Assembly (NCBI GenBank): GCA_026414565.1
Contig: JAOAIT010000045.1
Location: 1 to 64,000, forward strand
Source: Verrucomicrobiia bacterium
GTDB lineage: Bacteria; Verrucomicrobiota; Verrucomicrobiia; Limisphaerales; Fontisphaeraceae
Direction of reading: 5' to 3'
Length of the DNA: 64,000 nt
Below the pieces are notes generated by a model. It saw only the letters and a list, made by a program, of their open reading frames with translations. It made no database searches and was not told the origin of the DNA. Below are positions 5,882 through 62,905 of the stretch, in pieces (position 1 is the stretch's first letter; the number at the start of each line of letters is the position of its first letter). The position numbers and the translations under genes were made by a program.

Positions 5882-5986
5882 GGCCAGAAATATGGGTCAC
5901 CTGCGGGCGGGTAGGCAAACAGGAAATGTGCCGTCAAGGCCGTGTTTAAGGCTTGCGCGGTTGGGGTGACCGTGTCAAATAGCGCC

Positions 5987-7232: not shown

Positions 7233-8375
7233 TCAGGCGGCCTGCTCCCCGCGGTACACCCGCGGCACGCGGTAACTGATGTTGGTGAGCACTTCCCACG
7301 GGATGGTGCCAAACCATCCGGCCAGTTGGGCGGCGGTGATTTCCTTGTTGCCCTGGCGGCCCAGCAGCACCACTTCTTCGCCGGCTTTCACCTGGGGCAG
7401 GGGGGTGACATCCACCAGCGTTTGATCCATGGTCACTCGGCCGAGCACGGGACACAGACGCCCTCTAATCAACATCGCCGCCCGCTGACTGGCGGCCCGC
7501 ATGTAGCCATCGCCATAACCGCAGCCCACCACCGCCACCCGCATCGGCCGGGGCGTGATATAGGTGTGCCCGTAGCTCAACGGTGTGCCTTGGGGCACTT
7601 CCCGCACCAGCGTGACCCGGCTCTTCCATTGCAGCGCGGGCTTCAGGTGTCTGGCCAGGACGGAGGCGGGCCTGCGTTTGCCGGGGGGAATGATGCCATA
7701 GACCAACAGACCGGGACGAACCAGGTTGAAGTGCGCCTCCGGTTCCCACAAGACCCCCCCGCTATTGCAGGCGTGGACATACGGCACCACCACTCCGCCG
7801 GCCTCAATGGCCCGGAGAACCATGCTGAAACGCTCCCGCTGCTGCCGCGTGAACTCGGCATCGTCCTCGGCGGAGCTGAAATGAGTCATCAGCCCTGCCA
7901 GGCGCACACCGGGCAGCCGGGCGATGCTGCGCGCCAATTGCGCTGCTTCCTCCGGGCGTGCCCCCAGCCGCCCCATGCCGGTGTCCACTTTGAGATGCAC
8001 TTCCACGGTCTTGTTCTGCCGCCGGGCCTCGCGGGAAAACGCGCGGGCTTCGGCCAGCGTGGAAAGGGTGGGCATGATGCCATCCCGCACGGCGATGGGA
8101 ATTTCCTCGGGCAGACAGGCACCCAGCATCAGCACGGGCCAGCCCCGGCCGACCAGCCGCACACTGCGGGCCTCGGTCAGATTGGCCACCCCAAAAATGT
8201 CGGTGCCGCTTTGCATGAGCAGGGCGGCTATTTGTTTCAGCCCGTGCCCGTAGGCATCGGCTTTTACCACGGTGAGGATGCGGGTGTGCGGGCCGACGCG
8301 ATGCCGCAGCCACGCCAGATTCGAGCGCAGGGCATCGAAATCCACTTCCGCCCAGCAACGGTAGGGCGCATTCAT
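7233..8375 (-). CDS. alr: Alanine racemase
   Basis: This 380-aa PLP enzyme makes D-alanine for peptidoglycan. The PLP lysine is Lys38 in TVVKADAYGHG, and the fold-type III barrel continues through HLKVDTGMGRLG. The second catalytic base is in LSYGHTY, and the C-terminal beta domain has GRVTMDQTLVDV. The start was set at the ATG that overlaps the tsaB stop by 4 nt; the open frame continues upstream only as an antisense shadow of tsaB. It is the last gene of the minus-strand operon. Confidence 0.95.
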   Translation of the reverse strand: MNAPYRCWAEVDFDALRSNLAWLRHRVGPHTRILTVVKADAYGHGLKQIAALLMQSGTDIFGVANLTEARSVRLVGRGWPVLMLGACLPEEIPIAVRDGIMPTLSTLAEARAFSREARRQNKTVEVHLKVDTGMGRLGARPEEAAQLARSIARLPGVRLAGLMTHFSSAEDDAEFTRQQRERFSMVLRAIEAGGVVVPYVHACNSGGVLWEPEAHFNLVRPGLLVYGIIPPGKRRPASVLARHLKPALQWKSRVTLVREVPQGTPLSYGHTYITPRPMRVAVVGCGYGDGYMRAASQRAAMLIRGRLCPVLGRVTMDQTLVDVTPLPQVKAGEEVVLLGRQGNKEITAAQLAGWFGTIPWEVLTNISYRVPRVYRGEQAA

Positions 8376-9028
8376 AAATCTTTGAGCACGCGCGGCGGCG
8401 GGGCTTTGGCAAAGCGCGCCTCGCGCAAATAAATGGGGGTCAGGACGCCAGCCTCCGTGACCGCCTCCGCCGAGGCGGCCAGTCGCGCCAGCTCCTTCGC
8501 CCGGGGATGCCATTCCATGGCGCCGGGACACCAGCCGGTAATGTCCGGCCCCCATACCTTGGCCCCGGCGGCCAACTGTCCGCGCACCGCATTCTGTGGG
8601 AGCAACTGGGGCGGATGAATTTCCTGCCAACCCGTCTCCGCCAGCCGATAACCCGCCCAACAGGCCTCGCCGCGTTGGGCGTCCACCGCCAGAAACACCT
8701 CGCCACGCTGTCCACTGCGCCAAAGTCCCTCCGCCATGACGTGAAAACTGCTGATTCCCCAAAGCCTGACGGGGCGCACCGCCTGCCATCCCTGGGCGGC
8801 CGCAATCGCCATGCGAATGCCGGTATAACTGCCCGGTCCCAGACCAATCGCCAGCCCCTCCACCGCTGCGCGCTCCCAACCGGCTTGTTCCAGGGCTGCC
8901 TGAATCAGGGCAAACAGGCGCGTATGCCGCGCATGGGCTTCTGTGACTTCCACCGGCGGGCCGCCGGCTGAGTCCCATGCCGCCACGGAGCGGACCCCTG
9001 CCGACAGTTCAAGCGCCAAAATCTTCAT
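8372..9028 (-). CDS. tsaB: tRNA threonylcarbamoyladenosine biosynthesis protein TsaB
   Basis: This 218-aa ASKHA-fold protein begins MKILALELSAG and carries the GLAIGLGPGSYTGIRMA motif typical of TsaB/YeaZ. TsaB dimerises with TsaD and works with TsaE to form t6A37 in ANN-decoding tRNAs. It overlaps both neighbours (tsaE by 20 nt, alr by 4 nt), so it is translated from a polycistronic message. tsaD is not in the window. Confidence 0.9.
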   Translation of the reverse strand: MKILALELSAGVRSVAAWDSAGGPPVEVTEAHARHTRLFALIQAALEQAGWERAAVEGLAIGLGPGSYTGIRMAIAAAQGWQAVRPVRLWGISSFHVMAEGLWRSGQRGEVFLAVDAQRGEACWAGYRLAETGWQEIHPPQLLPQNAVRGQLAAGAKVWGPDITGWCPGAMEWHPRAKELARLAASAEAVTEAGVLTPIYLREARFAKAPPPRVLKDL

Positions 9029-47824: not shown

Positions 47825-48565
47825 TCATTGCTTGGGCGGCATGCCGGCGTAGCGGTACAGGTCCGTAATGGCCCACAAATTTAATGGATCAAACGCCTGG
47901 CCAAATTTCAACGGCCGGGCGCTGTAATCGGCCCAGATATAATTCGACATCCCCCCTTGGGAGCTGCGCGCCGTGCGCATGTGCTTGTTTTGATCAAGCT
48001 GCAGGATGTCGTCATACATGTCATAATCCATGTAATAATGGCCGGAATCATACTCTTTCTCCCCAAATACGATGGTCTGGCTGGGGTCTTTGATGGCATT
48101 TTCGCTTAACACCCGGGTGGACGTGCCGGCCCGGTAATTGGCCCAGTCGTTGGACGCATTGACTTTGAAATAATCATTCCAGCCGTTGATGATGTAACTG
48201 CGTGGGGCGGCATCCGCCGGGTATTGAGCCGCGGTATTATCCCCCTGGCCAAAGGTCTGTGGATTCATATCATCGCTGGGGCAGACCAGCAGCTTGAGAT
48301 TGTTGAAATAGGGGTACAAACGACTGGGCCAGCGCTCACGGCGGGTGCGGGGCGGATAATAGCCGTCATTGTCCTGCACATACATCTGCAACGCCAGACC
48401 AAGCTGGCGCATGCTGTTCAGACACTGGATGCGTTGGGCGGTGGCCTTGGCGCGGCCCAGCGCGGGCAACAGCATGCTGGCGAGGATGGCGATAATGGCC
48501 ACCACCACCAGAAGTTCAATCAAGGTAAAGCCCCGGCGGCTTGCGCCGGAGGCAACGCGGTTCAT
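47825..48565 (-). CDS. DUF1559-like prepilin-type protein
   Basis: This 246-aa protein has a class III signal: cleavage after Gly12 in [21 protein letters not shown], Glu at +5, and a long hydrophobic helix. It continues [20 protein letters not shown] and ends with a [20 protein letters not shown] element equivalent to the H-N-ADG motif of Verrucomicrobial/Planctomycete pseudopilins. It follows the giant subtilase on the same strand with a 104-nt gap. The start is at MNRV. Confidence 0.87.
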
Positions 48566-48669
48566 CTGAACTGGGCACACCATACCATGCCATTAGACGT
48601 CCGCCCTCGCGCGGAAGTTACGCCAAATTTTATCGGCTCCAAGTCGCGGCACGCGGCGGGGCGGCCGCT

Positions 48670-51600
48670 TCATTCGGCCGCGGTCCGCAACCGATAAAAC
48701 CGCGCCCGGGCCTCAGCCGGCTCGGACTGGGGCAGGGGCAGATTCAAGAACACGCGGTACCACGGCGCTTTGGGCAGAGGGGTGACCTGCCGGGGCAGGG
48801 GTTGGACCACGGGCTGCCAGTTTCGCAAGTCGGAGGAAGTTTCCAGGACATACGGCACGCCAGCCCCCACCAGGTACTCCAATACCAGATTGCCGGCGGC
48901 GACCTTGGGTGCCGCGGCGAATCCCAACAAATAACCCAGCCCGGGAGCACTGCTAAAGCCGCCAGTGAGATGGCTGACCTGCAGCATATAACTCACTGGT
49001 GCGGCGCCCGGATTATAGACGGCAATATTCCATTTGCCCGCCACAGGGGCATTACTGACCACGATTTGCTCGATATTGGTGCCCGCGCTGACCGAGCTGT
49101 AATCAAAACTGCCGGGGGTGGGATAGGCGGGCGACCGCGAGACCAGCAAATCCACGTTGCCGTCCAGCGGCCACAAAGTGAACACGCCGGCCGAGGCATC
49201 CGGCGGCAGGGTAACCTCGTAATAAGTCAGAGTGCCGGGACCAAGGATGCCGCTGGCGGGCGGGCCGCCGGAGGTAAGCACCGGCAGATTAAAGCCCACC
49301 ATCAGCGTGAAGGTGTTGGTCGTGCCCGGCGTTTCATTGCGCACGCCAAGGTAGTAACGGAGGCCGGGGATAATCTGGGGGGTGCTAAAGCCCAGCGCAT
49401 CCAAGATGGCGGCGCCACTCTGCACATCATTCAACAGCACCACGCTGCCGGGGGTGTTGGTGTCCGGTATGCCAATTTGATTGAACAGCAGGTCCAGCAA
49501 ACCATCACCGCTTACGGTGGTCAGGACATTCGTGGCAAGCGTGGCTACGGAGGGGACATCCACCACAAAGTAAAGGGTTTGCCCCCCGATCACGGTGGCC
49601 GTGATGGGCACCCCATTGGTCAGCGCGTTGGCCAGGGCGTTGGTATTAACAAACGCCAGGTTCAGCCGCCAATCCAACAAGGTGGCATCGGTGACGGGAT
49701 TGCCTCCCAACCGGTCCCAAATCTCTAAACGCCAGAACCCTTGCGAAGTCTCGCCAATCAGTTGATTCAGGGATTCCTCCGGCAACACAAAGAGACGATT
49801 GGTCACCGGAATCCCGTTGGTATCCTGGATCATGGTGGAATCAAATGGCGGCGGCTGAAACTTGATGGGCGTGGTGGTCAGGTTGGTGTTCTCGGTGAAA
49901 CTCAAGTAGTAATACCGGCCGCTCATGACCGTGGGGGTGTAAATCCAGGCAGTGCCCAGGTTGCCGCTCTCCTGATTCATGATCACCATCAGGTTCGTGT
50001 CGGCGCCCGGTCCGTAGTCCACCAGCAGCGTGCCGGTGCCATTGATGAAGCCGGAGTCAAAAATCAGCCGGCCTCCGTAATACACCCGCAGGCTGTCGGG
50101 AATGTCAAAGAAGTCATAGTCAATTTTCAAGGTGCCCACGGTCTGGGTGATGGTAATGATGTTGGTGATGGGATCGGGTGTGTCCCAGAACTGCTGCGGC
50201 GCCAGATAGTTGGTCACCAGATAACCCGAACCAATATTACTGGCCAATGGCCCGCCGCGGTTTTCCATCAGCACGATCCGCGTCTGGCTGGGGCTGACCA
50301 GCGTCAACACCAGATCGGCCACGCGCGGATGATCCAGGCGCACATCCACCATCACATCCGCCACCAGCCGGTTCTGCGGCACGTACACCTGCGAGTTGGT
50401 GGTCACGTCATCCATCAAAGCGCGGGAAATGCCCGGCAGGTACGCCTGGAACGGATCCGCGTTGAGATTGCGCCCCAGGGCAATGCCCAGACGCACCTTG
50501 ATCCGGCTGGGGCTGGGGTTATACACGCCGGCCACCCACAAGCCGGAGGTCAGCGGGGGCGAGTCATAGATGCTCAAATCCATCTGTCCGCCCGGCGGAG
50601 TGATGGAGAGCGACTTGTCATAGTCCAGCAGGGTGGGCGGCGCCCCGCGGCGCACATACAAATCAAAGGCCACATTGGGGCCTTCGATGATCGAGACGGT
50701 GAAGGAAACATTCGTCACGCCGGGCGGCACATTGATGGGTTCGTAGTGGTAGGCGCCGGGTTGCACCCAGAAATCGGTGTAGGTGTAGCCGAGGTCATTG
50801 GTCATCTCCATCGCCGGCTCCAGGCGCAGGGTGAGGCTGTTGACCACGCCCGTGTGATGCAGGGCATTGTCCACCATCGTCAGAATCCACATGCCCTGGC
50901 CCTCGTCACCAATAAAGTCGCGCAGACTGCCCGGCCCCTGGGTGTAACGGCTGTTGTCAATATCGCCCTCGTCACTGTCATCGTAAATAAAGGTGTAGGT
51001 CACCGGCGAGGGCGGCACCATCTCATCGCCGAAGGTGTGATTGTTCAGCACCACAAACTCATCCCCCGCCTCGCCCGCGTGGCTCAGGATGCCAATCAAA
51101 TCTCCCAGATTCTCGTGCGTGATCACATTGGTGACCACCACCCGCCTGATGGTGATGGGTTCGGTGGCAATGGCAAAGACCATGGCGCCCTGGGGATCGT
51201 CCGGCATGCCGTCCGGCACCTCCACATTAACGCTCAACCCCTGCACAATGAGGTTGCCCTCCTCATCACGCTGCGAAAACGGATTGTTGCTCGAGCTGGC
51301 AAACAGCCCATATTCCGCCGCCTGCTGATCCTCGCTCTTGACCCCCACATAAAACACCTGGCCCTCCGGCGCATTCGTGATCACGATCACTTCATTGCCG
51401 CCGCGCCGCGTGGATTTCAAGGCCGCAGCAATGGCCGCCGGATTCAAATTGGTCAGGGAGGAATCCGTGCTCACATACAAATCAATGTCGGCGTCCAATG
51501 CCCGCGGCCGGCCCAGGTTGGGCGGAATAAAGGTCAGGAAGGCCAGGTTGGTGCCGGCCGCATTGGTGCCCACGGCGCTGTTGGTGAACACATAGAAATT

Positions 51601-54444
51601 CCACTGATTCACCACCCCGTTGGTGGACGCGGCCAGAGGCGGATGGGCGCCAATGCGCTGGCGCATGAGCGCCTGGCTGTTGGTCAGCCCGATGACGATC
51701 GGCGCCGGGTCAGGCACAATCGCCGCCTCGGTCACCTGGATGGCGTTGGCATCGTGGCGCGCATCGCTGGAGATGACCAGCGCATAGTCCTGGCCAATCC
51801 CGTTGGTAAAGCTGGTGACGGCATTCACATTGACGCGCCGGGCCCGCACAATCACGGTGAAACTGCCGCCCGTCGGTTCACGAATAATCACATTCTCCAC
51901 ATTGTTCACGTAGTCAGCCTGCAGGGCGGCCAGCACATTCGAGCCGGCCTGATTGGTGGCCACCACGGGGGTGGTGAAGTCGTTGTCCGGCTCAAAGTTG
52001 TTTCCGAAGTACACCTGATGGGTGATGTTGTTGCTCACAATCAAATCCAGATCATTCACCAGCTTCACGCTGGCCACCGGATTGCCCGGCGGATCCGTCC
52101 ACGCCAGGGTGATCCGCAGGGGCTGGGTTTGCGCCGCCGCCGACAGCGTGACGGTGCGGGCCTGGCTGTCGCCGGTGGTGAGGATGCGGTTGGTGGCCTG
52201 ATCGAAGAGGGCGGCGGGCACGCTGGGGATGCTGTTGGTCAGATTCACCACGCCCCAGCCCTGGTAGTTGATGAAGCTGCGCGTGTTCAAATCATAATCC
52301 GGCAGAGAGCGCGCGCCGTTGATGATCAGGGCTTTCATCAAGGCCGGACTGTTGGTGCGGTGCAGCGTTTTTTCAAAATACTCCTGCATCAGCGCCAAAA
52401 TCCCGGAAACCATGGCGGCCGCCATGCTGGTGCCCGATTCATAACGGTACAAATCGCCCAGGGCCGCATTGAGCAGCGCCAATTCCTGATAGTAGGTGCC
52501 AAAATCCACGGCAGTGCCCACCACCACCGTCAAATCAAAGGTCACCGGGTACAGCGTGGGATTGCCAATCGCGTAAAAGTATTGCCCCGCCCCGCCGCTC
52601 ACCGTGACCGTGACATCATTAACGCCACGATAATCAGCCGGCGTGGTGTTGGTCCCCCGATTTACAAAAATCGGCAGCGCAGGCATCGGATTGGGCGAAT
52701 AGGGGCTGGGCACGATGCGGATGCGCAGACGGGTGGCAGAGTCCGGCACCCCAATGCTGAACTCATTGGTCGCGCCGGCGGGAATCGTCACATTATAAAA
52801 GTTGTTCACGAAACCACTGCCGGGGTTGGTGGGTGTTTGCCACCCGCTGGCCCGGCACGAGACGACAAATTCCCCCGGCGCCACCACATCCGGCTTGAAG
52901 CGCCCATGCTCGCCTTCCTGTCCCGGGGCCACATTGCCCCGGCTGGAATGGGCGGCCACCTCCACGGCGCTGTCGGTGTGGCCAAGCCACAAGCGATTGG
53001 TTTCGTCATTCCACACGACCTGGTTGGTGATGAACCGTTTCTGCTCCAGGCTGCCCACCGTAATCACGTTCTTGGCCGTGGCGGGGGACAAAATACTGCC
53101 AGCTCCGCCGCCTTTGCCATCCGGCGTGCCAAAGCCGTCATTGCCGGCCGCAAACACAAACAGCACGGGTTGATCGCCGGGTTGGCCGGGCAGGGCATCG
53201 CGCGTGGCGGCGTCAAAGCTGGCGCTGGCAAAGTTGTAGGAGTAGGCATCCTCGTAATACCAACTGTTATTGGAAATCAAGATATTGGTGCGCGCCGTAT
53301 TCTCCTGCAGCAGGGTGTCCGAGTAGTAATCAAACAAGGCATACTGCGCGTAAAGCCGCGCCGCAGGGGCCATGCCCCGCATGATGGCGCCATTAGTCGA
53401 GCCGGGAGGCGGTGCGGAGGGACTTCCGCTGCCATTGCCAGCGATGGAGCCGGCCACGTGAGTGCCGTGCCCATCAGTGTCCACCGTGGCGCCAAACACG
53501 CGGCCTTGCAGGGCGGGATGACTGGCGTCCACCCCCGTGTCGTTGATCCCTACCGTGACCCCGGCGCCGGTCAGCCCAAAATAATTGGGGGAAGTGGTCG
53601 AGTCGGGTGCCACCGACACCGTGACCCGCGCCAGGTCGTTGGCGCGTTTTCGGGCGCGCGCCTTCTCTATGGCCTGCACCTCCGGCAGCCGGGCCACCTC
53701 GGTGAGCCGCTCAGACGGAAGCTGCACGGTCATCTGCGGGCCAAAGGGCGTGCGTTGTTCGCGCACAATGGACGCACCCAGCCGGTTCAGCGCCTCGCGC
53801 CCCGGCGCTTCCGTGCCGGGAAACAGCACCACGTGCAACGTCATATCGCGCGGCAGGGGAGCCGCCGCCAAGGCCCCGGCCAAAAGTTCCTCTTCCAGTT
53901 TGTAGTAAGGTTCGTAAGGGGTGACCGCTTGCACCTCGGGATGATTCTCCAGCCGTCCCGCCGCCGCGGCATCACCGCGCACCAGCCAGGCTTGATTGGG
54001 AATATAGGAAACCGGCTCCACCCCGGCGGTTTTCAAGAGCGCGATAAAACGGTCATCGGCCTGCCGCCGGGCCTGCACAATGAAAGCACCTGGCTCACCC
54101 CCGGCCTTGAGGACGGGGGGAATGGGCAGCGCCAGCGGTTGCGTGGTATCCAACAGCGCGTTGCGGAGCAGCAACGCATGATCCTGCCGGGCCAGCGTGT
54201 CTATGGATTTGTCGGTGTTGCTCAGACGATGGGGAAAACGCGGATCCTCTGCTGCCGGCCGTGGGGTGACTGGCGTAGTGGCCGGGATGGCGCCTTGCGT
54301 GGCTGACGTCCCGGGATGGTGGGTCTGTGCTCCCGCGTGACTGGCTCGGGCGATGGCACCGGAACGTCCGGGCCACACCTGCCACAGGACCCATGCCATC
54401 AGCATCAGACCTGCGGCCACTAAAAATGGAGAGGCACGTTTCAT
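48670..54444 (-). CDS. Giant secreted subtilisin-like (S8, Kp43-type) protease
   Basis: This 1924-aa protein has an N-terminal signal or anchor (residues 7-24) and a propeptide region to about 270. The S8 domain shows Asp302 (NDTGVDASHP), His326 (DGHGTHVAGS), oxyanion Asn435 (AAGNDGFG) and Ser673 (SGTSMAAAM). About 140 residues with a beta-domain look are inserted between VVAPGEF and the serine. A Kp43-like beta domain follows (LVNDLDLIVSN, NVENVIIREP), then several P-domain/prepeptidase-C-like beta modules, and an FYRL-type C-terminus. It lies 166 nt after the GspK-like gene and is a plausible cargo of that system. Confidence 0.88.
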   Translation of the reverse strand: MKRASPFLVAAGLMLMAWVLWQVWPGRSGAIARASHAGAQTHHPGTSATQGAIPATTPVTPRPAAEDPRFPHRLSNTDKSIDTLARQDHALLLRNALLDTTQPLALPIPPVLKAGGEPGAFIVQARRQADDRFIALLKTAGVEPVSYIPNQAWLVRGDAAAAGRLENHPEVQAVTPYEPYYKLEEELLAGALAAAPLPRDMTLHVVLFPGTEAPGREALNRLGASIVREQRTPFGPQMTVQLPSERLTEVARLPEVQAIEKARARKRANDLARVTVSVAPDSTTSPNYFGLTGAGVTVGINDTGVDASHPALQGRVFGATVDTDGHGTHVAGSIAGNGSGSPSAPPPGSTNGAIMRGMAPAARLYAQYALFDYYSDTLLQENTARTNILISNNSWYYEDAYSYNFASASFDAATRDALPGQPGDQPVLFVFAAGNDGFGTPDGKGGGAGSILSPATAKNVITVGSLEQKRFITNQVVWNDETNRLWLGHTDSAVEVAAHSSRGNVAPGQEGEHGRFKPDVVAPGEFVVSCRASGWQTPTNPGSGFVNNFYNVTIPAGATNEFSIGVPDSATRLRIRIVPSPYSPNPMPALPIFVNRGTNTTPADYRGVNDVTVTVSGGAGQYFYAIGNPTLYPVTFDLTVVVGTAVDFGTYYQELALLNAALGDLYRYESGTSMAAAMVSGILALMQEYFEKTLHRTNSPALMKALIINGARSLPDYDLNTRSFINYQGWGVVNLTNSIPSVPAALFDQATNRILTTGDSQARTVTLSAAAQTQPLRITLAWTDPPGNPVASVKLVNDLDLIVSNNITHQVYFGNNFEPDNDFTTPVVATNQAGSNVLAALQADYVNNVENVIIREPTGGSFTVIVRARRVNVNAVTSFTNGIGQDYALVISSDARHDANAIQVTEAAIVPDPAPIVIGLTNSQALMRQRIGAHPPLAASTNGVVNQWNFYVFTNSAVGTNAAGTNLAFLTFIPPNLGRPRALDADIDLYVSTDSSLTNLNPAAIAAALKSTRRGGNEVIVITNAPEGQVFYVGVKSEDQQAAEYGLFASSSNNPFSQRDEEGNLIVQGLSVNVEVPDGMPDDPQGAMVFAIATEPITIRRVVVTNVITHENLGDLIGILSHAGEAGDEFVVLNNHTFGDEMVPPSPVTYTFIYDDSDEGDIDNSRYTQGPGSLRDFIGDEGQGMWILTMVDNALHHTGVVNSLTLRLEPAMEMTNDLGYTYTDFWVQPGAYHYEPINVPPGVTNVSFTVSIIEGPNVAFDLYVRRGAPPTLLDYDKSLSITPPGGQMDLSIYDSPPLTSGLWVAGVYNPSPSRIKVRLGIALGRNLNADPFQAYLPGISRALMDDVTTNSQVYVPQNRLVADVMVDVRLDHPRVADLVLTLVSPSQTRIVLMENRGGPLASNIGSGYLVTNYLAPQQFWDTPDPITNIITITQTVGTLKIDYDFFDIPDSLRVYYGGRLIFDSGFINGTGTLLVDYGPGADTNLMVIMNQESGNLGTAWIYTPTVMSGRYYYLSFTENTNLTTTPIKFQPPPFDSTMIQDTNGIPVTNRLFVLPEESLNQLIGETSQGFWRLEIWDRLGGNPVTDATLLDWRLNLAFVNTNALANALTNGVPITATVIGGQTLYFVVDVPSVATLATNVLTTVSGDGLLDLLFNQIGIPDTNTPGSVVLLNDVQSGAAILDALGFSTPQIIPGLRYYLGVRNETPGTTNTFTLMVGFNLPVLTSGGPPASGILGPGTLTYYEVTLPPDASAGVFTLWPLDGNVDLLVSRSPAYPTPGSFDYSSVSAGTNIEQIVVSNAPVAGKWNIAVYNPGAAPVSYMLQVSHLTGGFSSAPGLGYLLGFAAAPKVAAGNLVLEYLVGAGVPYVLETSSDLRNWQPVVQPLPRQVTPLPKAPWYRVFLNLPLPQSEPAEARARFYRLRTAAE

Positions 54445-54610: not shown

Positions 54611-57600
54611 CTACTCCGGCGGCAGAAAGTTGAAACTCTCAATGACCGCCCGCGGGCGCACTGTGCCCGGGGTGGTGGAAACATCCTCGATCCGCACCAC
54701 TGTGCGGGTGCCCACCTCGCCGGTGACCACATAATTGGTGCACAGCATGTAGGCCGGGTGATTGGGGGCCAGGGTCATCTGAATCGAGGCATTGGCCGGC
54801 CGCAGCGATTGCCCCCACGCATAGATCACAAATCGCGCCTCCTCCACCCGCAACAGCGAAAGCAGTTTCTGCGGCAGCATCTCATAGGCTGCATCACTCA
54901 CGCCCCCACCCGGCGATTGGCCCGGCTGGCCCCCTGCCTGCCCGGCCAGGTAGGGCGAGCTGACTGTCAGCTCGGGCACCTGCAACACATCACTGACGCG
55001 CTCAAACCGTCCCCGCGGCAGCGTGGCCCGGAAATTCATAAGCCCCTGATAAATGGCATCCAACTCCGGCGAATTGGGTTGAATCACCACATCCGCCAGC
55101 CCCGTGGAAGTGGTGGTGGCCACCAAAATGCCGCTCAACGCGGCGCTCCAGGCGGCATAGTTGGTCTGGTTGATGGGCATCAGGCCCCGGGTGGCCTCCG
55201 GATGCGGCGCCGTGGTGAACAGATCCACCAGCCGCCAGTCGTTGGTGGGATGACTGACCTGCGGCAGACGGCTCCCGGACCAGCGCCGCCACGTCTGCTC
55301 ATCGGCGGCGGTGCTCTTCAAGTAGATCGTCTGCCATGGCGTGCCCCGATGCACCCGCCCCAGCCACCCCACATTGGGAAACTTGGTGTGCGGAAAATCC
55401 CAGTCATCGGATTTGCGCACCTCCGGATCCTTGACGCGCAGATCAAAGGCGTAGGGATCGGCAGAGGGATCCTTTTGGGGATTGCCCCCCCACGGCTGAT
55501 AGCGGGTATTCAAGCGCCCAATATTCCAATTGGTGGGCGCCAGGGAAGGGGGCTTGAGCACCAAAATTTGATTCGTCACCCCCCGCGGATCCATCAAATC
55601 CTCCACCCGGTAATGCACCAGCGGATCGTTGGCCTGCCATGAGGTCAGCACATACAGCTTGCGCGTTGGCGAAAACGGGGATTGCTGCACCAGCCCGGAC
55701 AACGGCAACTGGCTGCGCTGATACCGCAACGGCGGCTGGCCCATGAAAACCCGGAAGGTGTCAATGGACTTCTCCTTGTCCATGCCCTGCGCGGCCTGAT
55801 CATTGTAGCTGCGCCAGTCGCCCGCGCTGACGCTGCGATTGCCCAGGCAAACTTCGATTTGATTGAAGATTCCCTCCGGCGGGTGGAACAGTGTGTTGCC
55901 GCCAATCCGGTTGGTCAGCCACATGCTGCCAATCGCCGAAGGCTCGCCCAAAATATCATTGTTGGAAATCAGCTCGCGGGTGATGTCAATGTAGCTGTCC
56001 AGGCCCTGCAGGTTGACATAGTCCACAATGCGGTTGGTCCCGCTGGCCGTGTCCACCAGGGCATAAAGAAATTTGTTCACAATTTTCAGCCCCCACTGCG
56101 GCGTGGTGAAGCCGGGCGTGCGATCAAAACCGGGATTGGGCACAATGGGCAGAAAACGATTGCCCGCCGTGAAATAACCGCTGTTGGGCAGAAAAACCAG
56201 GTTGGTCTGAAGCGGAATGCGAAACGCCCCCGGCCCCCAGCTTCCCGCCGGAATGGCCGTCGGCCCCAGTGCCGAAACAATGACCGGTGGATTCGGCATG
56301 CCATTGGGCAGGTTGGGGTAGCCCTGTTCATTGGTCAGCACGATCATCATGAAGTTGGTGGCCCGCATCTCCAGACTGCGCGGGAAGGCGCTGGTGTAGG
56401 AATTCCACAATTCCACCCCCACCACGTTGGAAATGCCCAGCACCCACATCTGATTGGTCTGATTGGGCAGGGAATTGGTGCTCGGGCGGCGAAATTCGAG
56501 CTTGCGGGTGACCTGAATGTAGGTTTGCAGGGCGAACTCGTTGAAATTGGGATAGCCCTTGCGCGCGCCAATGATGAGCGGCACGCCCCAAACCATGTCA
56601 TACGGTTGCAACGCGCCGCGATCCGCCGTGCTGTTCAAATCGCGCAGGGGCACGTCCAACACCGAATCATCCTTCTGCTCCTGGTAGCCCACAATGTAAA
56701 TCGCCTCCCCCTGCTTGGCGAACACAGGGCGAAATACCGTTGGATAATCGGGGTAAATGCCCACATCATTGCGGGTGGCGTCATATATGTTGGCCGTCAT
56801 CTGCAGCAGTTGATGCAACTCCTGGCTGTACAAATTCGTATGTCCCGTGGGCTCCCAGATCAAAATGTTGGTGATGGTGAAACCAAACTCGTTGCTCCGG
56901 GCGCGAAGCAACCGATCCGCCACCAGATTAAAGAACGTTGTCGCATCCCACTCCGTCAGGCTTTCCAGGTTGGTGGTGATGTTGTCGTAATTCAGGTGAA
57001 TGACATTGGTCAGTTTCAACGGCACGGTGTCCGTGCCCAGTTGCGCGAGCAGCCGGTAAAAGACGTGGCCATCGTAGGGCGGCAGGTTCTGGCTGGCGCT
57101 CAGCAAACGATTGGTGAACGCCACCGACGTCTTGGCCGGATCAAACAAATCCCACGGCGTGTAAAAACGGTTCTTACTGGGGCCGCCGGGCCAGCTTTCC
57201 TGGGGCTGATCCTGGCCGATGGATCGGTTGTCCAAATTGATGGTCTGAAGGCGATCCGCCAGCGTTTGCACCGGCCCGTTGCCGTAAGTGTCCAGGCGGT
57301 CATGGCTAAACTTGGAAGCATTCGCTCCAAACAAATCATAGGCACTGGGATAACCGGTCCGGTAATTCCCGCCCACGCGGAAACGGACAAAATCTCGCGC
57401 ATCCTCAAACGCCGTGCCAGAACTGCCTGCTGTAGGATTGATTGCGTAATTCGTATATGTCCAGGAATTGGTATTCAGGCTGTGCAGGAAGGCCGCCAGG
57501 TTGATTTCCCACGAGCCGTGCCCTTGATTCCGCAAAAACGCCTCGTCATTTACCCCCCGGCGCTTGGCCTGATTGTGATTGGCATTGAGATCCAGCAGCC

Positions 57601-58159
57601 CGCCCGACGGCATTACCAAATACGCGTAGCGATAAAGAAACCGGTTGGTCCCGCTGTGGCCCTCCCCGGGATAGGCCGTCACTCCAATCCATTCGGGATC
57701 GCCGAGGATTTCCGGCAGCGTCGGGTCATGGCGTCGGTTGCGGTTAAGATCCAGATAAAATCGTTCCTCCAGCGCGCCCGCCAGCGTGGGCAGAAACACA
57801 GGAGCGCGGGCATCATTGCTCAAGCCGAGCGTGGGATAGCCGGCCACCGGGCCAACCACATCCCAATTGGTGGAGACGATCGCCGGCAGGGTGAGCAGGT
57901 CATTGGAGGTCCCAATACGGGCCAGGATTTCTCCCAGTGCCCGCTCGCGCCCCGCCGCCGCCGCCGTTTCGGCCACCGTCAGACTGGCCGCTTGCGTCAC
58001 TTGGCCGCGCTCGCGCCGGGCAATGAGCAGAAAAGTGACGGCAATAAAGGTGATGATGGACAACATGATCAGCGTGATCAGCAGGGCCACACCGGCCTGG
58101 CGCCGGTGGGGACCGGCCATGGCTGTCCATCTCAACTTGGGGGTGGCAAACAACTTCAT
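54611..58159 (-). CDS. GspK-like large minor pseudopilin (Verru_Chthon cassette protein A-like)
   Basis: This 1182-aa protein begins with RRQAGVALLITLIMLSIITF, a pseudopilin-type hydrophobic helix that lacks the Glu at +5, as GspK proteins do. The very long mature part is rich in Asn, Thr and aromatic residues. Size, N-terminus and position as the last of four pseudopilins match the 'Verru_Chthon cassette A' family as I recall it. The start overlaps the GspJ-like stop as ATGA. In type II secretion GspK caps the pseudopilus tip with GspI and GspJ; here it would be a greatly enlarged tip protein. Confidence 0.78.
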   Translation of the reverse strand: MKLFATPKLRWTAMAGPHRRQAGVALLITLIMLSIITFIAVTFLLIARRERGQVTQAASLTVAETAAAAGRERALGEILARIGTSNDLLTLPAIVSTNWDVVGPVAGYPTLGLSNDARAPVFLPTLAGALEERFYLDLNRNRRHDPTLPEILGDPEWIGVTAYPGEGHSGTNRFLYRYAYLVMPSGGLLDLNANHNQAKRRGVNDEAFLRNQGHGSWEINLAAFLHSLNTNSWTYTNYAINPTAGSSGTAFEDARDFVRFRVGGNYRTGYPSAYDLFGANASKFSHDRLDTYGNGPVQTLADRLQTINLDNRSIGQDQPQESWPGGPSKNRFYTPWDLFDPAKTSVAFTNRLLSASQNLPPYDGHVFYRLLAQLGTDTVPLKLTNVIHLNYDNITTNLESLTEWDATTFFNLVADRLLRARSNEFGFTITNILIWEPTGHTNLYSQELHQLLQMTANIYDATRNDVGIYPDYPTVFRPVFAKQGEAIYIVGYQEQKDDSVLDVPLRDLNSTADRGALQPYDMVWGVPLIIGARKGYPNFNEFALQTYIQVTRKLEFRRPSTNSLPNQTNQMWVLGISNVVGVELWNSYTSAFPRSLEMRATNFMMIVLTNEQGYPNLPNGMPNPPVIVSALGPTAIPAGSWGPGAFRIPLQTNLVFLPNSGYFTAGNRFLPIVPNPGFDRTPGFTTPQWGLKIVNKFLYALVDTASGTNRIVDYVNLQGLDSYIDITRELISNNDILGEPSAIGSMWLTNRIGGNTLFHPPEGIFNQIEVCLGNRSVSAGDWRSYNDQAAQGMDKEKSIDTFRVFMGQPPLRYQRSQLPLSGLVQQSPFSPTRKLYVLTSWQANDPLVHYRVEDLMDPRGVTNQILVLKPPSLAPTNWNIGRLNTRYQPWGGNPQKDPSADPYAFDLRVKDPEVRKSDDWDFPHTKFPNVGWLGRVHRGTPWQTIYLKSTAADEQTWRRWSGSRLPQVSHPTNDWRLVDLFTTAPHPEATRGLMPINQTNYAAWSAALSGILVATTTSTGLADVVIQPNSPELDAIYQGLMNFRATLPRGRFERVSDVLQVPELTVSSPYLAGQAGGQPGQSPGGGVSDAAYEMLPQKLLSLLRVEEARFVIYAWGQSLRPANASIQMTLAPNHPAYMLCTNYVVTGEVGTRTVVRIEDVSTTPGTVRPRAVIESFNFLPPE

Positions 58160-59007
58160 GGGCGTGGAGCGGCCAGCACGGGAATGCGCTGGCGGAACAA
58201 ATGGGTTTGGGCGGTGCGTCGCTCATGTTCCAGGAAGGCGCGCGCCTGCGCCGGGTCCATGACCTTGATGCGTTCCACCAGGTGCTGCTCGAGCACCGCC
58301 AGTTTCAGCTCAATAAAAGCCGGCAGGGCCTCCCCCCAGAAAGCCGCCACATTCGCATCCACCCATTGGTTGGTGGAGGAGGGAGGGCGTTGGCCCTGGG
58401 CATCATAGACGTGAACTTCCAACTGCACCACCCCATCCGCAATCCGGTGCATGTAAGGGCTGTTGGGCAGCCGCCCCACTTCATTGGTAAACATGCGGTA
58501 AAAGGCCCGCGTGCCCGCAGGCGAGTTGGTCTCCGCGTAAAAACGATAGAGCGTCCCCACCCCGTTCTCGGCCGGATCCACCAAGTAACCAATGCCCTTG
58601 TAGGTGGTGTTTTCCTGCAGGATGAAAAAGAAGGCTTCGAGATCATTGTCCAGCGTGCCGCCGCCCGGCAGGCGCTGGTTGAGGGGATTGGCACCCAGGA
58701 TGCGCGAGGCAAAAAAATGGAAACCGTTACCATCCTGCCCCGTCGCCACTGCCTGTTGCACCTCGCGGGTCATCATTTCCATCATGATCCGGCCGCTTTC
58801 CAGCACGTCGGTTTGATTATTCGCCGAGCGCAGGGCGCGGGAGGTCTGCGAAAACATGGCCAGCAGGCCCACAATGATCATGGCCAGGATGCCCACCGCC
58901 ACCATCATTTCCACCAGGGAGAAGGCCCGGGCAGAGCGGCCCTGCCGGCATTGTGACAACCGCGCCAGTGGGCGCTTGCACATCCTCTGGATCATCGAAA
59001 AGGTCAT
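58156..59007 (-). CDS. GspJ-like minor pseudopilin (Verru_Chthon cassette protein C-like)
   Basis: This 283-aa protein has a class III signal with Ala rather than Gly before the cut (SARA|FSLVEMMVAVGILAM, Ala28/Phe29) and Glu33 at +5. The following LESGRIMMEMMTREVQQAV helix is typical of GspJ. Its start overlaps the GspI-like stop as ATGA; the open frame continues upstream only as a shadow. Confidence 0.83.
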   Translation of the reverse strand: MTFSMIQRMCKRPLARLSQCRQGRSARAFSLVEMMVAVGILAMIIVGLLAMFSQTSRALRSANNQTDVLESGRIMMEMMTREVQQAVATGQDGNGFHFFASRILGANPLNQRLPGGGTLDNDLEAFFFILQENTTYKGIGYLVDPAENGVGTLYRFYAETNSPAGTRAFYRMFTNEVGRLPNSPYMHRIADGVVQLEVHVYDAQGQRPPSSTNQWVDANVAAFWGEALPAFIELKLAVLEQHLVERIKVMDPAQARAFLEHERRTAQTHLFRQRIPVLAAPRP

Positions 59008-59627
59008 GGCCGAAACAGAAAGATGGTTTCTCCCGCCACATTGGTTTCCATCAGCGTCCCGCTGACCATGAACCGATAGGTGCGCGGACTGCCGCTGGCC
59101 ATGCGCCGCCCGGGCGTCCCGTCGGGGCGCAGCGGCCATTCAAACCGCAGGGTGACCTCATGCAAATAGTCCGCCAACTGCGGCGGCGACGACGGCGGCG
59201 GCGGAAAGGGCCGCACTTCACAGGTCAAACGATAACGAAATGCCACCGGCGCACTGGCCGCCGAACGCTCCGCCGCCGACCCGCTCAAGCCGCGCACAAT
59301 GGCGGTGTTGACCTGCTCGGGGATGCTCAACATCCCGATGACCAGCAGGGGGTCATTCACATTTTTTCCGTTCACACTTTCCACCTGTCCCGCCAGTTGG
59401 ATGTCGCCCGGCGCGCCCAGCCGGATGGCCTGCATGAAATAACGGGCGTCCTGGTCAATGATGGTCTCCTCGCGATTGTCTTGCGTCACCCGCATGCCGG
59501 TGGGCATGACGCCAATGATGGCCACCAGGGCAATGGCAATCACCCCCAGGCAGATGGCGATCTCCACCATGTTGAACCCGCGCTGGCGCTGGCGCTGACG
59601 TCGGCTCTGGTATCCTGTGGTTTGCAT
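59004..59627 (-). CDS. GspI-like minor pseudopilin (Verru_Chthon cassette protein B-like)
   Basis: This 207-aa protein has cleavage after Gly17 in RQRGFNMVEIAICLGVIAIA with Glu22 at +5, then AIIGVMPTGMRVTQDNREET, which resembles cassette B proteins. It lies 13 nt downstream of the GspH-like gene and overlaps the GspJ-like start. Confidence 0.83.
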   Translation of the reverse strand: MQTTGYQSRRQRQRQRGFNMVEIAICLGVIAIALVAIIGVMPTGMRVTQDNREETIIDQDARYFMQAIRLGAPGDIQLAGQVESVNGKNVNDPLLVIGMLSIPEQVNTAIVRGLSGSAAERSAASAPVAFRYRLTCEVRPFPPPPSSPPQLADYLHEVTLRFEWPLRPDGTPGRRMASGSPRTYRFMVSGTLMETNVAGETIFLFRP

Positions 59628-59640
59628 GCCAATGAAGCGG

Positions 59641-60507
59641 TCAGGGCTGCACTCCCGGCAGCTCCGGACGTACCATCTTCCCGCGGCCGGTCATCCAATC
59701 TATATGGATGATGTTGTAATTGTTGATGCTGTTATTGGGCGGGTTTTCGATGACCTGGGGCGCCTGCCAGAGAAGCTCCTGGGTGACCGGATCCCGCGGC
59801 GGAATCACCGCCCCGCGGGCCAGCGGAATATCCACGTCCGTGGCGGTCGGCAAAGGACGCCCCTGCGCATCAAAGCGCACCAGTTGCCCCTGATGATTGA
59901 AGGCTATATACGGCATGGGCACCAGCCGGCTGGTGGCCTCCGGAAACGGGATGGAGGTGGTGGGAAACGGCGTGATGGCGCCCTGGCCCGTCGTGTATTT
60001 CCAAATCGGAATAAACACCCCTTCCGGCAGGCTGACCCAATCCCGCAAATACGCGGGGGTGTTTTGTCCGGGCTGATCCCCGGCCTGCCGCCGGGCAAAC
60101 AGGGCGTAGCCGGTATATTGCAAATCCAGCAGCTCCCGCGCCCGGGTTTGCTCGGGGCCGGTAAAAGCGCCGCCCAGGCTGTAATATTGGTGGGGCAGAA
60201 AGACCATGAACACGGTCGTCCGATGACGAATGGCCAGCCGGCGGGCATAACCAACGTCATCCAAAAGCTGCCGGGTGGCTGCGTTCATGGTATCGCTCTT
60301 GGCGATCTTGCGAATGGCCGGCAGGGAGACCGCCGTTAACAAGCCAATGATGGCAATGACCATCAGCAGCTCCGCCAAAGTGAAAGCCATCATCAGCCAC
60401 GGCGCACCCCCTGTGGGCCTTCGGCCTCTGGCCGCCGCCCGGACTGCGGCATGATGATGGATGATGGCGGTTTTCATGGCGGTCGTTTCCGGGCCGGTTA
60501 TTTCCAT
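59641..60507 (-). CDS. GspH-like minor pseudopilin (Verru_Chthon cassette protein D-like)
   Basis: This 288-aa protein has the helix AFTLAELLMVIAIIGLLTAV with a cut after Ala41 and Glu46 at +5, followed by QLLDDVGYARRLAIRHRTTV, the GspH/FimT-type second helix. The leader is unusually long (41 residues) if translation begins at 60507, which overlaps the upstream gene by 10 nt. A second ATG at 60477 gives a 31-residue leader. Confidence 0.8.
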   Translation of the reverse strand: MEITGPETTAMKTAIIHHHAAVRAAARGRRPTGGAPWLMMAFTLAELLMVIAIIGLLTAVSLPAIRKIAKSDTMNAATRQLLDDVGYARRLAIRHRTTVFMVFLPHQYYSLGGAFTGPEQTRARELLDLQYTGYALFARRQAGDQPGQNTPAYLRDWVSLPEGVFIPIWKYTTGQGAITPFPTTSIPFPEATSRLVPMPYIAFNHQGQLVRFDAQGRPLPTATDVDIPLARGAVIPPRDPVTQELLWQAPQVIENPPNNSINNYNIIHIDWMTGRGKMVRPELPGVQP

Positions 60508-61130
60508 CCCAGCACGTTGTCCTTGTTGTCCGGATGATTGGGATCCGGATTGGCTTTGCCATCCGGCCCTCGGGACCAGATCATAACGTTGAGCCGTATG
60601 GCGCCCGCGGGGTTGTACACCGGATCTTTGGCCACATCATCAAAGTCATTGTCCAGCGTGATGATGTACTGATTGCCCCATGGATCATTGTAGTTGCCGT
60701 TGGGGGTCACTCCCGGCGCGCCATTGTCGCTCGCCGGTTTCACATCTAGGTACACCGTCTGGCGGGGATTGCGCGGATGCCCCTGATTGCTGGCCCGGTT
60801 GGCAGGATTCACGTTGCGCAGCACATCCACCACCTCGTTGTTGTTGGGGCCGCCCCCCAGAAAATCGGCTGCCCCATAGGTGGTGTCCACCGTATTGGTG
60901 GTGGGGTAGATGCTGTAATCCTTCTCATACATCAAAATGGCCGCTTTCAAACCGGCCATCTCCGTCTTGGCCAGCGCCTTTTTGGCTTTGCCTTTGGCCG
61001 CCACCACCGCCGAGAGGATCAGTCCCGCCAGGATGGCGATGATGGCGATCACCGTTAACAGCTCAATCAGCGTAAAGGCCCGAGGGGCGCGTCGGTAGGC
61101 TTTCATAAAAATTGGTCTTGAAGTCCTCAT
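60498..61130 (-). CDS. GspG-like major pseudopilin (second copy)
   Basis: This 210-aa protein has the signal APRA|FTLIELLTVIAIIAI (Ala18/Phe19, Glu23) followed by KTEMAGLKAAILMYEKDYSIYPTT (quoted in part: AAILMYEKDYSIYP) and NYNDPWGNQYIITLDNDF, the GspG core with a DPWGN calcium-site region. It starts 3 nt after the first GspG-like gene. A second ATG at 61106 is possible. Confidence 0.85.
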   Translation of the reverse strand: MRTSRPIFMKAYRRAPRAFTLIELLTVIAIIAILAGLILSAVVAAKGKAKKALAKTEMAGLKAAILMYEKDYSIYPTTNTVDTTYGAADFLGGGPNNNEVVDVLRNVNPANRASNQGHPRNPRQTVYLDVKPASDNGAPGVTPNGNYNDPWGNQYIITLDNDFDDVAKDPVYNPAGAIRLNVMIWSRGPDGKANPDPNHPDNKDNVLGWK

Positions 61131-61133
61131 GGT

Positions 61134-61772
61134 TTAGCGTCGTTCCCAATTCGAAATACGCACCACTTTCCCGCGGATTACCAGCTCCGCCCACAAATCA
61201 TAGGAGTTCTTGTTGTGATCGGGGTTGGTGGATTTGTACCGCCATACGTTGATGGTGGGATGGCTGGGCACCGGCGGCGTCCCAAAACCCTGCGGCCATT
61301 CGCCGGGGGTCTTGAGCAGTTTGACTCCGCCAATGTCCACCGTCTCCGGGATGGTATCGCCAAAAAAGCTGCGAATGGTCTGCCCGGGCTTGGCGGTGTG
61401 CACGATGCCCCCCACGCCCAGCTTCCCCATGTCAATCGGTTGCTGGTGGATGTCCGTAAAACGCGACCCGTCCCACAGCACCCCGGTCAGCTCATAGAAT
61501 AACTGATGGACCGCGGTGTTGCCGGAGGGGTTGTCAGGGGGATATAGCCCATGCTTGGCGTGATAAGCCTCGATGGCCGCTTCGATCTGCCGCAGTTGCG
61601 CCTCCGCCCGGCTGCGCAGGGATCGATCTTTGGCCACCGGCAGAATCGTCAGGGCAATGGCCGCCAACACCCCGATGACCGCCAGCACCATCAAGATCTC
61701 CACCAACGTGAATCCCTGCCGGATGCGGGTCCGGTTCTGCTTCGCTCTTGCCAACGTCAGCATCGCTTTCAT
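61134..61772 (-). CDS. GspG-like major pseudopilin (first copy)
   Basis: This 212-aa protein has the signal RQGFTLVEILMVLAVIGVLA (cut after Gly20, Glu25 at +5), then QLRQIEAAIEAYHAKHGLYP, typical of GspG. The C-terminal half (YDLWAELVIRGKVVRISNWE) keeps the last beta strands. The ATG overlaps the TGA of the 76-aa Pro-rich ORF (ATGA at 61769-61772). Confidence 0.85.
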   Translation of the reverse strand: MKAMLTLARAKQNRTRIRQGFTLVEILMVLAVIGVLAAIALTILPVAKDRSLRSRAEAQLRQIEAAIEAYHAKHGLYPPDNPSGNTAVHQLFYELTGVLWDGSRFTDIHQQPIDMGKLGVGGIVHTAKPGQTIRSFFGDTIPETVDIGGVKLLKTPGEWPQGFGTPPVPSHPTINVWRYKSTNPDHNKNSYDLWAELVIRGKVVRISNWERR

Positions 61773-62008: not shown

Positions 62009-62323
62009 TTATCCGCGCAAGTAGCGCATGCCGGGCGCATTTTCATTCTGGCGGGCGGCCATTTCCTGCTCCAACCGCTCGCTGATCCACTGTTTCATCA
62101 TGCTCTGATAGTTGAGGTAACGCGAGCGCGCCAGCCGTTTGATGCGCGAAAGCATCCGCGGATCCATCCGCAACGTAATGGTGACTGACTCGGATAATTC
62201 CGAACCCGCCGCCACCGCGGCCTCCATCAGCCGCAAATCAATGCGGTTCTCCGCCCAGAACGCCGCCTCCGCCTGTTCACTGTCAAACAGCGGAACCTCT
62301 TCCCAATCCGTAATCGTGTTCAT
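62009..62323 (-). CDS. CopG-type antitoxin (BrnA-like)
   Basis: This 104-aa protein has a charged N-terminal half (TDWEEVPLFDSEQAEAAFWA) and a C-terminal ribbon-helix-helix segment SVTITLRMDPRMLSRIKRLA with YLNYQSMMKQWISERLEQEM. It lies 17 nt after the BrnT-like toxin, in the toxin-first order of BrnTA modules. The RHH domain would bind DNA for autoregulation. Confidence 0.8.
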   Translation of the reverse strand: MNTITDWEEVPLFDSEQAEAAFWAENRIDLRLMEAAVAAGSELSESVTITLRMDPRMLSRIKRLARSRYLNYQSMMKQWISERLEQEMAARQNENAPGMRYLRG

Positions 62324-62340: not shown

Positions 62341-62628
62341 TTATGCCGACAGCAGTTGGCTGGCTTTTTTCTGGTAAAAGAAGCGCTCCTCCGCCGTAAA
62401 GGGCCGTGCAAAAATGACCCGCGTCACCTTGCCGTTGGTCCGATATACACTGAAAATCCCCTGTCCGCTGGCCGACAAACCCAGATTGAAATACCGCGCC
62501 TGCGCCGAAAAACGGGGGGTGTCCGGCAGCAGCTTGACGGCGAAGGGATCCTCGAAAGACTCCTCAATCGCCACCGTGCTTAAGGGCGGCTCAATGGCAA
62601 ACGCCGGCTGAAACCAATCGAAATCCAT
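62341..62628 (-). CDS. BrnT-like toxin
   Basis: This 95-aa protein contains ATVAIEESFEDPFAVKLLPD-like (TVAIEESFEDPFAVKLLPD) and YFNLGLSASGQGIFSVYRTN followed by KVTRVIFARPFTAEERFFYQ. This is the order of conserved segments in BrnT RNase toxins (F.D, G.S..G..L.V..., RIISAR.A...ER..Y). It is first in the operon, with a palindromic operator just upstream. The start MDFDWF is preferred over an upstream ATG. Confidence 0.75.
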   Translation of the reverse strand: MDFDWFQPAFAIEPPLSTVAIEESFEDPFAVKLLPDTPRFSAQARYFNLGLSASGQGIFSVYRTNGKVTRVIFARPFTAEERFFYQKKASQLLSA

Positions 62629-62649
62629 AATGCATTCAATGTATATCCA

Positions 62650-62662
62650 AACGCAATGCGTT
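62650..62662. promoter_or_regulatory. Palindromic operator of the toxin-antitoxin/pseudopilin operon
   Basis: AACGCA-A-TGCGTT is a perfect 6+1+6 palindrome 21 nt upstream of the toxin ATG. On the minus strand a TATACA box (62640-62645) lies just downstream of it and a weak -35 lies about 17-18 bp further up, so the palindrome fills the spacer. This is the expected place for CopG-type autorepression. The rest of 62663-62905 shows no gene. Confidence 0.5.
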
Positions 62663-62905
62663 GTATTGACGATGTAAATACGCACATCTTCCCGTACCTG
62701 TCAAGTCTTGGCTTTTCAGCCATATTCATTTTCCGCCCCAGGTTTGAAGGATTGAAGTTGTACTCCTAACGAATGCCCTCGCTCCCTGTCTTCTGAAGCT
62801 GGATTAGGCATTTTCAGAAAAGGGAGGGAAATTTTAAGCTGTGATTATGCTTGCCTTCGGGGCATAAGAAGCGGATATGTCTCTTGAGCACCATGGCTAA
62901 AGCTT

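Follow-up and report, generated by a model that had tools for sequence, protein, structure and literature searches.

A 1182-residue minor pilin, probably of the GspK superfamily, encoded directly in front of a giant S8 protease in Limisphaerales

In type II secretion systems (T2SS) and type IVa pili, a minor pilin with a Glu-less helix (GspK and PilX, respectively) is thought to occupy the tip; GspK has been proposed to meet substrates, and an analogy has been suggested between PilY1 and the substrate of a T2SS (PMC7541494). XcpX/GspK and the homologues of I and J assemble into a complex (PMC6211770). In GspK and ComZ the pilin sheet contains inserted modules, and the secreted protein CofJ has CofB as its adapter (PMC8179133). 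TcpF, a product of the TCP operon, attaches to the tip pilin TcpB, and a secretion mechanism that depends on TcpB has been proposed (PMC9565799). Here we describe a 1182-residue protein (the giant) encoded on the minus strand of a 64,000-nucleotide stretch of DNA, referred to as the window (contig JAOAIT010000045.1 of assembly GCA_026414565.1, positions 1 to 64,000), from a Verrucomicrobiia bacterium of the order Limisphaerales, family Fontisphaeraceae. Sequence profiles make the giant a probable member of the GspK superfamily, its pilin core being split by an insert of ~ 680 residues, and S8-like protease sequence follows it at every testable locus of the order.

The giant resembles GspK (PF21687, PF03934; PDB chains 3CI0_K and 5VTM_X) in its Glu-less helix, in being the last of an H-I-J-K series and, through intermediate proteins, in a second helical domain with the strand that follows it; the pilin sheet of GspK likewise contains an inserted module (PMC8179133). 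Unlike GspK, it is about three times longer, carries the ~ 680-residue insert, matches no GspK model, is accompanied by PilT-family machinery and occurs in a genome with a GspK of its own. A second point of comparison is TIGR02600 (Verru_Chthon cassette protein A), a model of 1296 positions from the same class with B-, C- and D-like pilins beside it, whose N-terminal part matches that of the giant at 95.3% in hhalign (residues 15–193 of the window protein). The TIGR02600 model itself, however, does not match the giant, the middle parts cannot be aligned and the neighbouring genes differ. Type IVa PilX/PilY1 combines a Glu-less tip pilin and a large tip mass with a PilT-type machine, but in two polypeptides rather than one, and the giant has no Pfam match. 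CofB and TcpB, with CofJ and TcpF as their partners, are likewise large modular tip pilins, and TcpF and TcpB share an operon (PMC9565799), whereas the giant shows no sign of related modules and the protein that may partner it is a subtilase, mostly 1800–3200 residues long. PilB of S. sanguinis and ComZ of Thermus also have a module added to a pilin (inserted in the sheet in ComZ, as in GspK), but the giant differs in size and its insert belongs to no Pfam family. Modular GspK-like tip pilins are thus already known as a kind, and the TIGR02600 family has been catalogued by name only. In the open-access literature searched we found neither the giant family, nor its pairing with a protease, nor the chain of intermediates described below, and no paper on Verru_Chthon, TIGR02600 or a GspK pseudopilin in Verrucomicrobia.

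The gene and its parts, all on the minus strand, were delimited as follows, with the insert boundaries (241/918) inferred from profile matches:

54611..58159, minus strand: giant, putative GspK-superfamily minor pilin, 1182 residues (open reading frame, AlphaFold2 model, matches in 55 of 58 genomes)
57440..58159, minus strand: N-terminal core, residues 1–240 (prepilin leader, Glu-less helix, first strands, GGLLDLN motif)
55406..57439, minus strand: predicted insert, residues 241–918, ~ 680 residues (beta-rich at ~ 475–725 by DSSP of the AlphaFold2 model)
54614..55405, minus strand: C-terminal core, residues 919–1182 (helices like those of GspK domain 2, three last strands)

The original prediction, made from the letters alone, had assigned 54611–59007 to a single oversized GspK-like tip protein. 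Only 54611–58159 belongs to the giant and the rest is a J-like gene (58156–59007), but the oversized protein with a Glu-less pilin helix that it described is borne out. The cleavage region reads RRQAG|VALLITLIM, and among 64 aligned members of the giant family (aligned parts of 1177–1445 residues; 63 of 80 loci from named genomes were used, L116 and L154 being left out for frame breaks) residue +5 is Ile in 42, Val in 13, Thr in 8 and Leu in 1, and Glu in none, the window protein having Ile. Reference GspKs likewise have no Glu at this position (0/23), and the five pilins encoded upstream of the giant keep it (FTLVE, FTLIE, FTLAE, FNMVE and FSLVE). The insert is the least conserved third of the protein, with a mean identity to the window protein of 0.38 compared to 0.46 and 0.48 in the flanks.

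No family in Pfam or NCBIfam matched the giant at E ≤ 1, the GspK models PF03934, PF21687 and NF037980 and the PilY1 propeller domain included. Its kinship was assessed by profile–profile comparison in hhalign. Against a profile of 23 reference GspKs (out of 30 frames, length 330–380), the giant's helix scored 67.6%, compared to 8.1% (J), 7.9% (G2), 4.7% (G1), 1.9% (I) and 0.2% (H) against the pilin families of its own operon. The link beyond the helix runs through K-like bridging proteins of 787–853 residues from other orders of the class (the I-family; ten of 20 fetched I-type loci entered the profile). The I-family matched GspK in both the helix (95.2%) and domain 2 (87.9%, E = 3e-6), and with helices removed the comparison still gave 91.7% (score 59.3), against 10.7% (score 33.0) for the best of 40 block-shuffled controls and at most 2.1% for seven other families. 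The same I-family profile matched residues 919–1167 of the giant at 99.7% (E = 1e-25), with a second match to the giant's N-terminus of only 0.3%. Since the intermediates match both GspK domain 2 and the giant's C-terminus, the giant's probable membership in the GspK superfamily is a transitive claim. The order of motifs is similar: DLFT comes first, next a segment reading G.(I/L)N or SVNQ, after it F..(V/L)G(E/D) or similar, and finally a strand such as RFVVYAYGQ or STFEV. In the direct comparison of giant and GspK, the two best matches outside the helix, which were not significant, fell in this order and on the same motifs. The giant's C-terminal part alone scored 2.2% against GspK and other stretches 0.1–0.3%. 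Pfam searches with ten I-type proteins returned matches below cut-off only, including HHH_3 (0.007, once) and PilX_N (0.02–0.7, three times). Taking these observations together, we regard the anatomy of the giant and its place in the GspK superfamily as very likely.

The T2SS GspK of this genome is a separate gene. An ordinary GspK of 373 residues, roughly a third of the giant's length, is encoded elsewhere (L052:9171–10292, on contig C55 of the window genome, G000; PF21687 E = 4e-20; XcpX 1e-7 and GspK 5e-6 in PDB), with GspF-like (341 of 424 bits), H-, I- and J-like genes in front of it. PF21687 had matches in 57 of the 58 genomes of the order, over cut-off in 56 of them, at places other than those of the giants. 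In many of the order's genomes it also matched within longer open frames (~ 440–700 residues). The predicted likeness to GspK thus holds for the helix and, through intermediates, for domain 2, and profile similarity does extend past the first 100 residues, but the reading of the giant as a T2SS GspK is not supported: the genome has its own, and a PilT-family ATPase gene accompanies the operon at most testable named loci.

AlphaFold2 produced a confident model of the giant from 64 sequences (predicted local distance difference test, pLDDT, 82.4; predicted template modelling score, pTM, 0.79), with a helix at 22–85, strands at both ends and a beta-rich middle at 475–725, an arrangement which, in the model, would correspond to a pilin module with a separate beta-rich module as in modular type IV pilins. 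Foldseek searches with the full model returned weak beta-sandwich matches (arrestins, transglutaminases and GH2 enzymes), none at E ≤ 0.001, and the best VIA-align Z was 4.5. Residues 906–1182 folded alone (pLDDT 83.1, pTM 0.75) resembled cystatin-like and other three-strand sheets (Foldseek and VIA-align, Z up to 4.0). A sequence search of PDB gave one chance match (0.035) with query A2 and none with query A4. Modelling of the protein alone, as the original prediction had proposed, yielded a good model but no GspK among the fold matches listed; the fold searches would neither back nor contradict the kinship, and the predicted folds are not thereby shown to differ.

Matches to the giant were found in 55 of 58 searched genomes (relatives within Limisphaerales, including the window genome itself, where the gene is single copy) and in all 40 that were at least 90% complete, so a chance open reading frame can be dismissed. 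In named genomes, a scan with the single protein as query confirmed no relative, and a profile-guided scan confirmed 266, of which 80 were kept. Their labels included Limisphaerales, Limisphaera, Pedosphaera and Verrucomicrobia subdivision 3; two labelled Akkermansia and one labelled Proteobacteria are presumably misnamed metagenome-assembled genomes.

The gene closes a run of pilin genes in the order G1-G2-H-I-J-K, as had been predicted, and this place is conserved across Limisphaerales. The surrounding genes in the window are the following:

48670..54444, minus strand: S8 subtilase, 1924 residues, hydrophobic N-terminus (PF00082 1.8e-37; PF01483, P-domains; PF04151, PPC)
58156..59007, minus strand: J-like minor pilin (Verru_Chthon C-like, below cut-off)
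59004..59627, minus strand: I-like minor pilin (Verru_Chthon B-like, below cut-off)
59641..60507, minus strand: H-like minor pilin (Verru_Chthon D-like, below cut-off)
60498..61130, minus strand: G-like pilin 2, G2 (T2SSG 3e-5)
61134..61772, minus strand: G-like pilin 1, G1 (generic pilin models of Pfam and NCBIfam)
62009..62323, minus strand: CopG-type antitoxin-like gene at the operon head (PF12441 9e-11)
62341..62685, minus strand: BrnT-toxin-like gene at the operon head (PF04365 7e-4, below cut-off)

The pilin neighbours match generic pilin models, and their matches to TIGR02598, TIGR02599 and TIGR02596 are all below cut-off. The adjacent protease that the original prediction mentioned is a 1924-residue neighbour with the Pfam Peptidase_S8 domain (E = 1.8e-37).

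Conservation of the operon was measured by tblastn with the window genes at 80 loci from named genomes and 30 loci from relatives, counting only loci with enough flanking sequence for the gene in question. The two sets are not independent, since an exact 200-base test found 12 of the relatives' 30 loci again in the named set of 80. S8-like sequence on the same strand within 1.5 kb downstream could be tested at 63 and 29 loci, respectively, and lay directly 3′ of the giant in every one (63/63 and 29/29). Upstream, J was present at 68/69 named and 28/30 relatives' loci, and the remaining pilins were found without exception at the named loci (I, 66/66; H, 62/62; G2, 56/56; G1, 54/54) and at all 30 relatives' loci each. 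The downstream S8 frames, where complete, mostly had 1800–3200 residues (52/56).

We propose that the giant serves as a modular tip pilin through which the S8 protease of its operon is exported or displayed, a reading to which we give an even chance. The giant would be a minor pilin of GspK/PilX type that caps a type IV filament, whose Glu-less helix would let it sit above the other subunits beside J, I and H, and whose pilin/GspK core (~ 1–240 and 919–1182) would be interrupted by the ~ 680-residue insert projecting from the filament end. PilB- and PilC-like proteins would assemble the filament, with retraction probably driven by a PilT-family ATPase. The protease would reach the periplasm by Sec export and would then most likely be bound by the insert, and the filament would either push it through a secretin or display it outside, as in TcpB–TcpF and CofB–CofJ. 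The data show the anatomy, the order-wide operon, its protease linkage and, through intermediates, the kinship of the C-terminal end to GspK; tip position, retraction and above all protease binding and export are steps that we infer. The protease as partner of the giant could about equally turn out right or wrong.

Another explanation, possible if rather unlikely, is that the giant works as an adhesin or environmental sensor at the tip of a type IV pilus, in effect a fused analogue of PilX–PilY1, and that the S8 protease is secreted separately and shares regulation only, or trims the pilus or frees it from surfaces. Published modular tip pilins mostly bind ligands (PMC8179133), there are K-like cassettes in other orders with no flagged S8 gene, and four relatives encode solitary paralogues of 815–862 residues that cover only residues ~ 399–1107 of the giant, as if this region had a function of its own (L053:8464–11052, L054:8735–11206, L055:8397–10922 and L056:8837–11284). 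These start with a hydrophobic N-terminus where the giant has its pilin helix, and their C-terminal module differs; since they carry the region without that helix, the giant's middle and domain-2 region can exist separately, probably as a secreted protein. Yet S8-like sequence directly follows the giant at every testable locus of the order, which is tighter than shared regulation needs.

The genes for the filament machinery bear on whether the operon builds a type IV filament or a T2SS pseudopilus. Further upstream of the operon, a GspF/PilC-like gene was found at 37/52 named and 18/29 relatives' loci, a GspE/PilB-like gene at 35/47 and 12/20, and a PilT-like gene at 30/39 and 2/3. At locus L042 the PilT gene scores 440 bits, over the 319 bits required for PilT/PilU, the PilB-like gene falls just under both of its cut-offs (PilB, 646 of 676; GspE, 626 of 630) and the PilC/GspF-like gene is below its own. 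The window genome carries, on another contig (C18), a GspE/PilB-like gene (4313–5998, 72% identical), a PilT-like gene (6083–7168, 82% identical) and a second GspE-like gene (7245–8909), and it has four secretin matches. Because a PilT-family ATPase accompanies the operon, these gene assignments make a retractile type IV filament likelier than a T2SS. The opposing view, that the operon encodes a dedicated T2SS pseudopilus in which the giant is a large GspK recruiting the protease, could draw on the G-H-I-J-K gene order, the GspK-like helix and domain, the neighbouring protease, the secretin matches and the PilB-like ATPase being almost as close to GspE; we consider it improbable in view of the separate classic GspK cluster, the PilT-family gene found with the operon at those 30 of 39 named loci and the failure of every GspK family model to match the giant.

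Given the missing Glu5 and the gene order, a position of the giant at the tip appears likely. A modular pilin off the tip, built into the filament shaft or retained in the inner membrane, is very improbable: tip placement is indeed deduced only from those two features, and for modular pilins a place in the filament body is not excluded according to PMC8179133, but, going by general knowledge of pilins, a subunit that lacks Glu5 and bears a 680-residue insert would be difficult to pack inside a filament.

Several observations weigh against the giant as a GspK-derived tip pilin carrying the protease. GspK for its part reaches 51.7% against G1 and 32.6% against G2, which makes likeness of the helix alone weak evidence; beyond the helix, the direct comparison of giant and GspK gave a non-significant 0.4–0.5%; and joined profiles of the giant's two ends, tried and rejected, reached 79.3% (a helix match only), compared to 82.1% for a control join. 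No GspK chain was among the best 50 matches listed per fold search, either for the full model or for residues 906–1182. AIRN is the usual PilT motif, and it is absent from the PilT of L042. In the window itself the machine genes are not adjacent to the operon. All three S8 catalytic motifs (strict patterns) were present in only 38 of the 56 complete downstream frames. The linkage between pilin and protease is genomic, and co-operonic genes can serve one trait without physical contact. Finally, an S8 gene was flagged at none of the 12 I-type loci of other orders; the protease link is accordingly not general, and the notion that K-like cassettes everywhere come with a protease was rejected.

Outside the order, comparison was extended to the Verru_Chthon cassettes. 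TIGR02600 had no match in the window genome and was over cut-off in 8 of 113 genomes of the class, all outside Limisphaerales; 13 order genomes match the model, with listed matches covering only its first ~ 60 positions. Twenty loci over cut-off were examined (L237–L256; contig C46 of genome G095 was left out as lying at a contig edge), and a large secreted neighbour was defined as at least 450 residues with a signal-peptide-like start. Genes, signal peptides and motifs were assigned by simple scripts here, as well as for the S8 motifs, the I-type loci, the separate GspK cluster and the paralogues. Large secreted genes made up 12 of the 37 directly beside these cassettes, compared to 5 of 68 more distant ones (Fisher p = 0.0016), and such a neighbour was present at 10 of the 20 cassettes. 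Ten selected cassette neighbours were scanned for domains. The seven from Verru_Chthon cassettes contained CBM9 (three), LamG with alginate lyase, GH5, PATR repeats and PEP-CTERM (one each), and of the three from I-type cassettes, one had Ig-like domains and two gave nothing. Pairing with a large secreted protein is thus a tendency in these genomes, fixed with one protease in Limisphaerales, and the expectation that cargo genes beside the cassette would share a domain holds within the order (S8-like sequence at all testable loci) but not in other orders, where the neighbours differ.

A broader scenario would have the whole order use a retractile type IV filament as a dedicated device for export and display of one giant subtilase carried on a giant GspK-derived tip, the insert having coevolved with its cargo; sister Verru_Chthon lineages would do the same with other large enzymes or secreted proteins (glycoside hydrolase, CBM9, PEP-CTERM), the cassettes being exchangeable, cargo-specific tips. 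As a whole we regard this as doubtful. If the proposed reading of the giant holds, Verrucomicrobia cassettes known only by the name Verru_Chthon (TIGR02596 to TIGR02600) would gain a function open to testing, a series of growing inserts (~ 360, 800 and 1200+ residues) would connect GspK with tip pilins of increasing size, and a widespread order would have a giant protease borne on a filament.

A few minor features of the locus and its relatives were also recorded. The CopG-antitoxin-like and BrnT-toxin-like pair stands at the operon head at 50/52 named and 26/29 relatives' loci, and such fixation of a toxin–antitoxin-like pair in a pilus operon suggests domesticated regulators; outside Limisphaerales, I-type cassettes have the pair too, at least three of them (L229, L231 and L234). 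The S8 proteins of the order tend to end in a module (the C-terminal 70 residues in the window protein) with a final FYR-like motif, found by a loose pattern in the last 40 residues of 52/56 complete frames (FYR itself in 32/56), and a similar end occurs in short paralogues; this module is a possible sorting signal, and a role as a binding signal is also conceivable. The short paralogue at L056 adjoins a second GspE/GspF/pilin cluster. Finally, a lone DUF1559-type pilin lies 3′ of the protease at 47825–48583 in the window and in the same place in the sister genome (L032), with L091 the only further match among the loci compared by tblastn.

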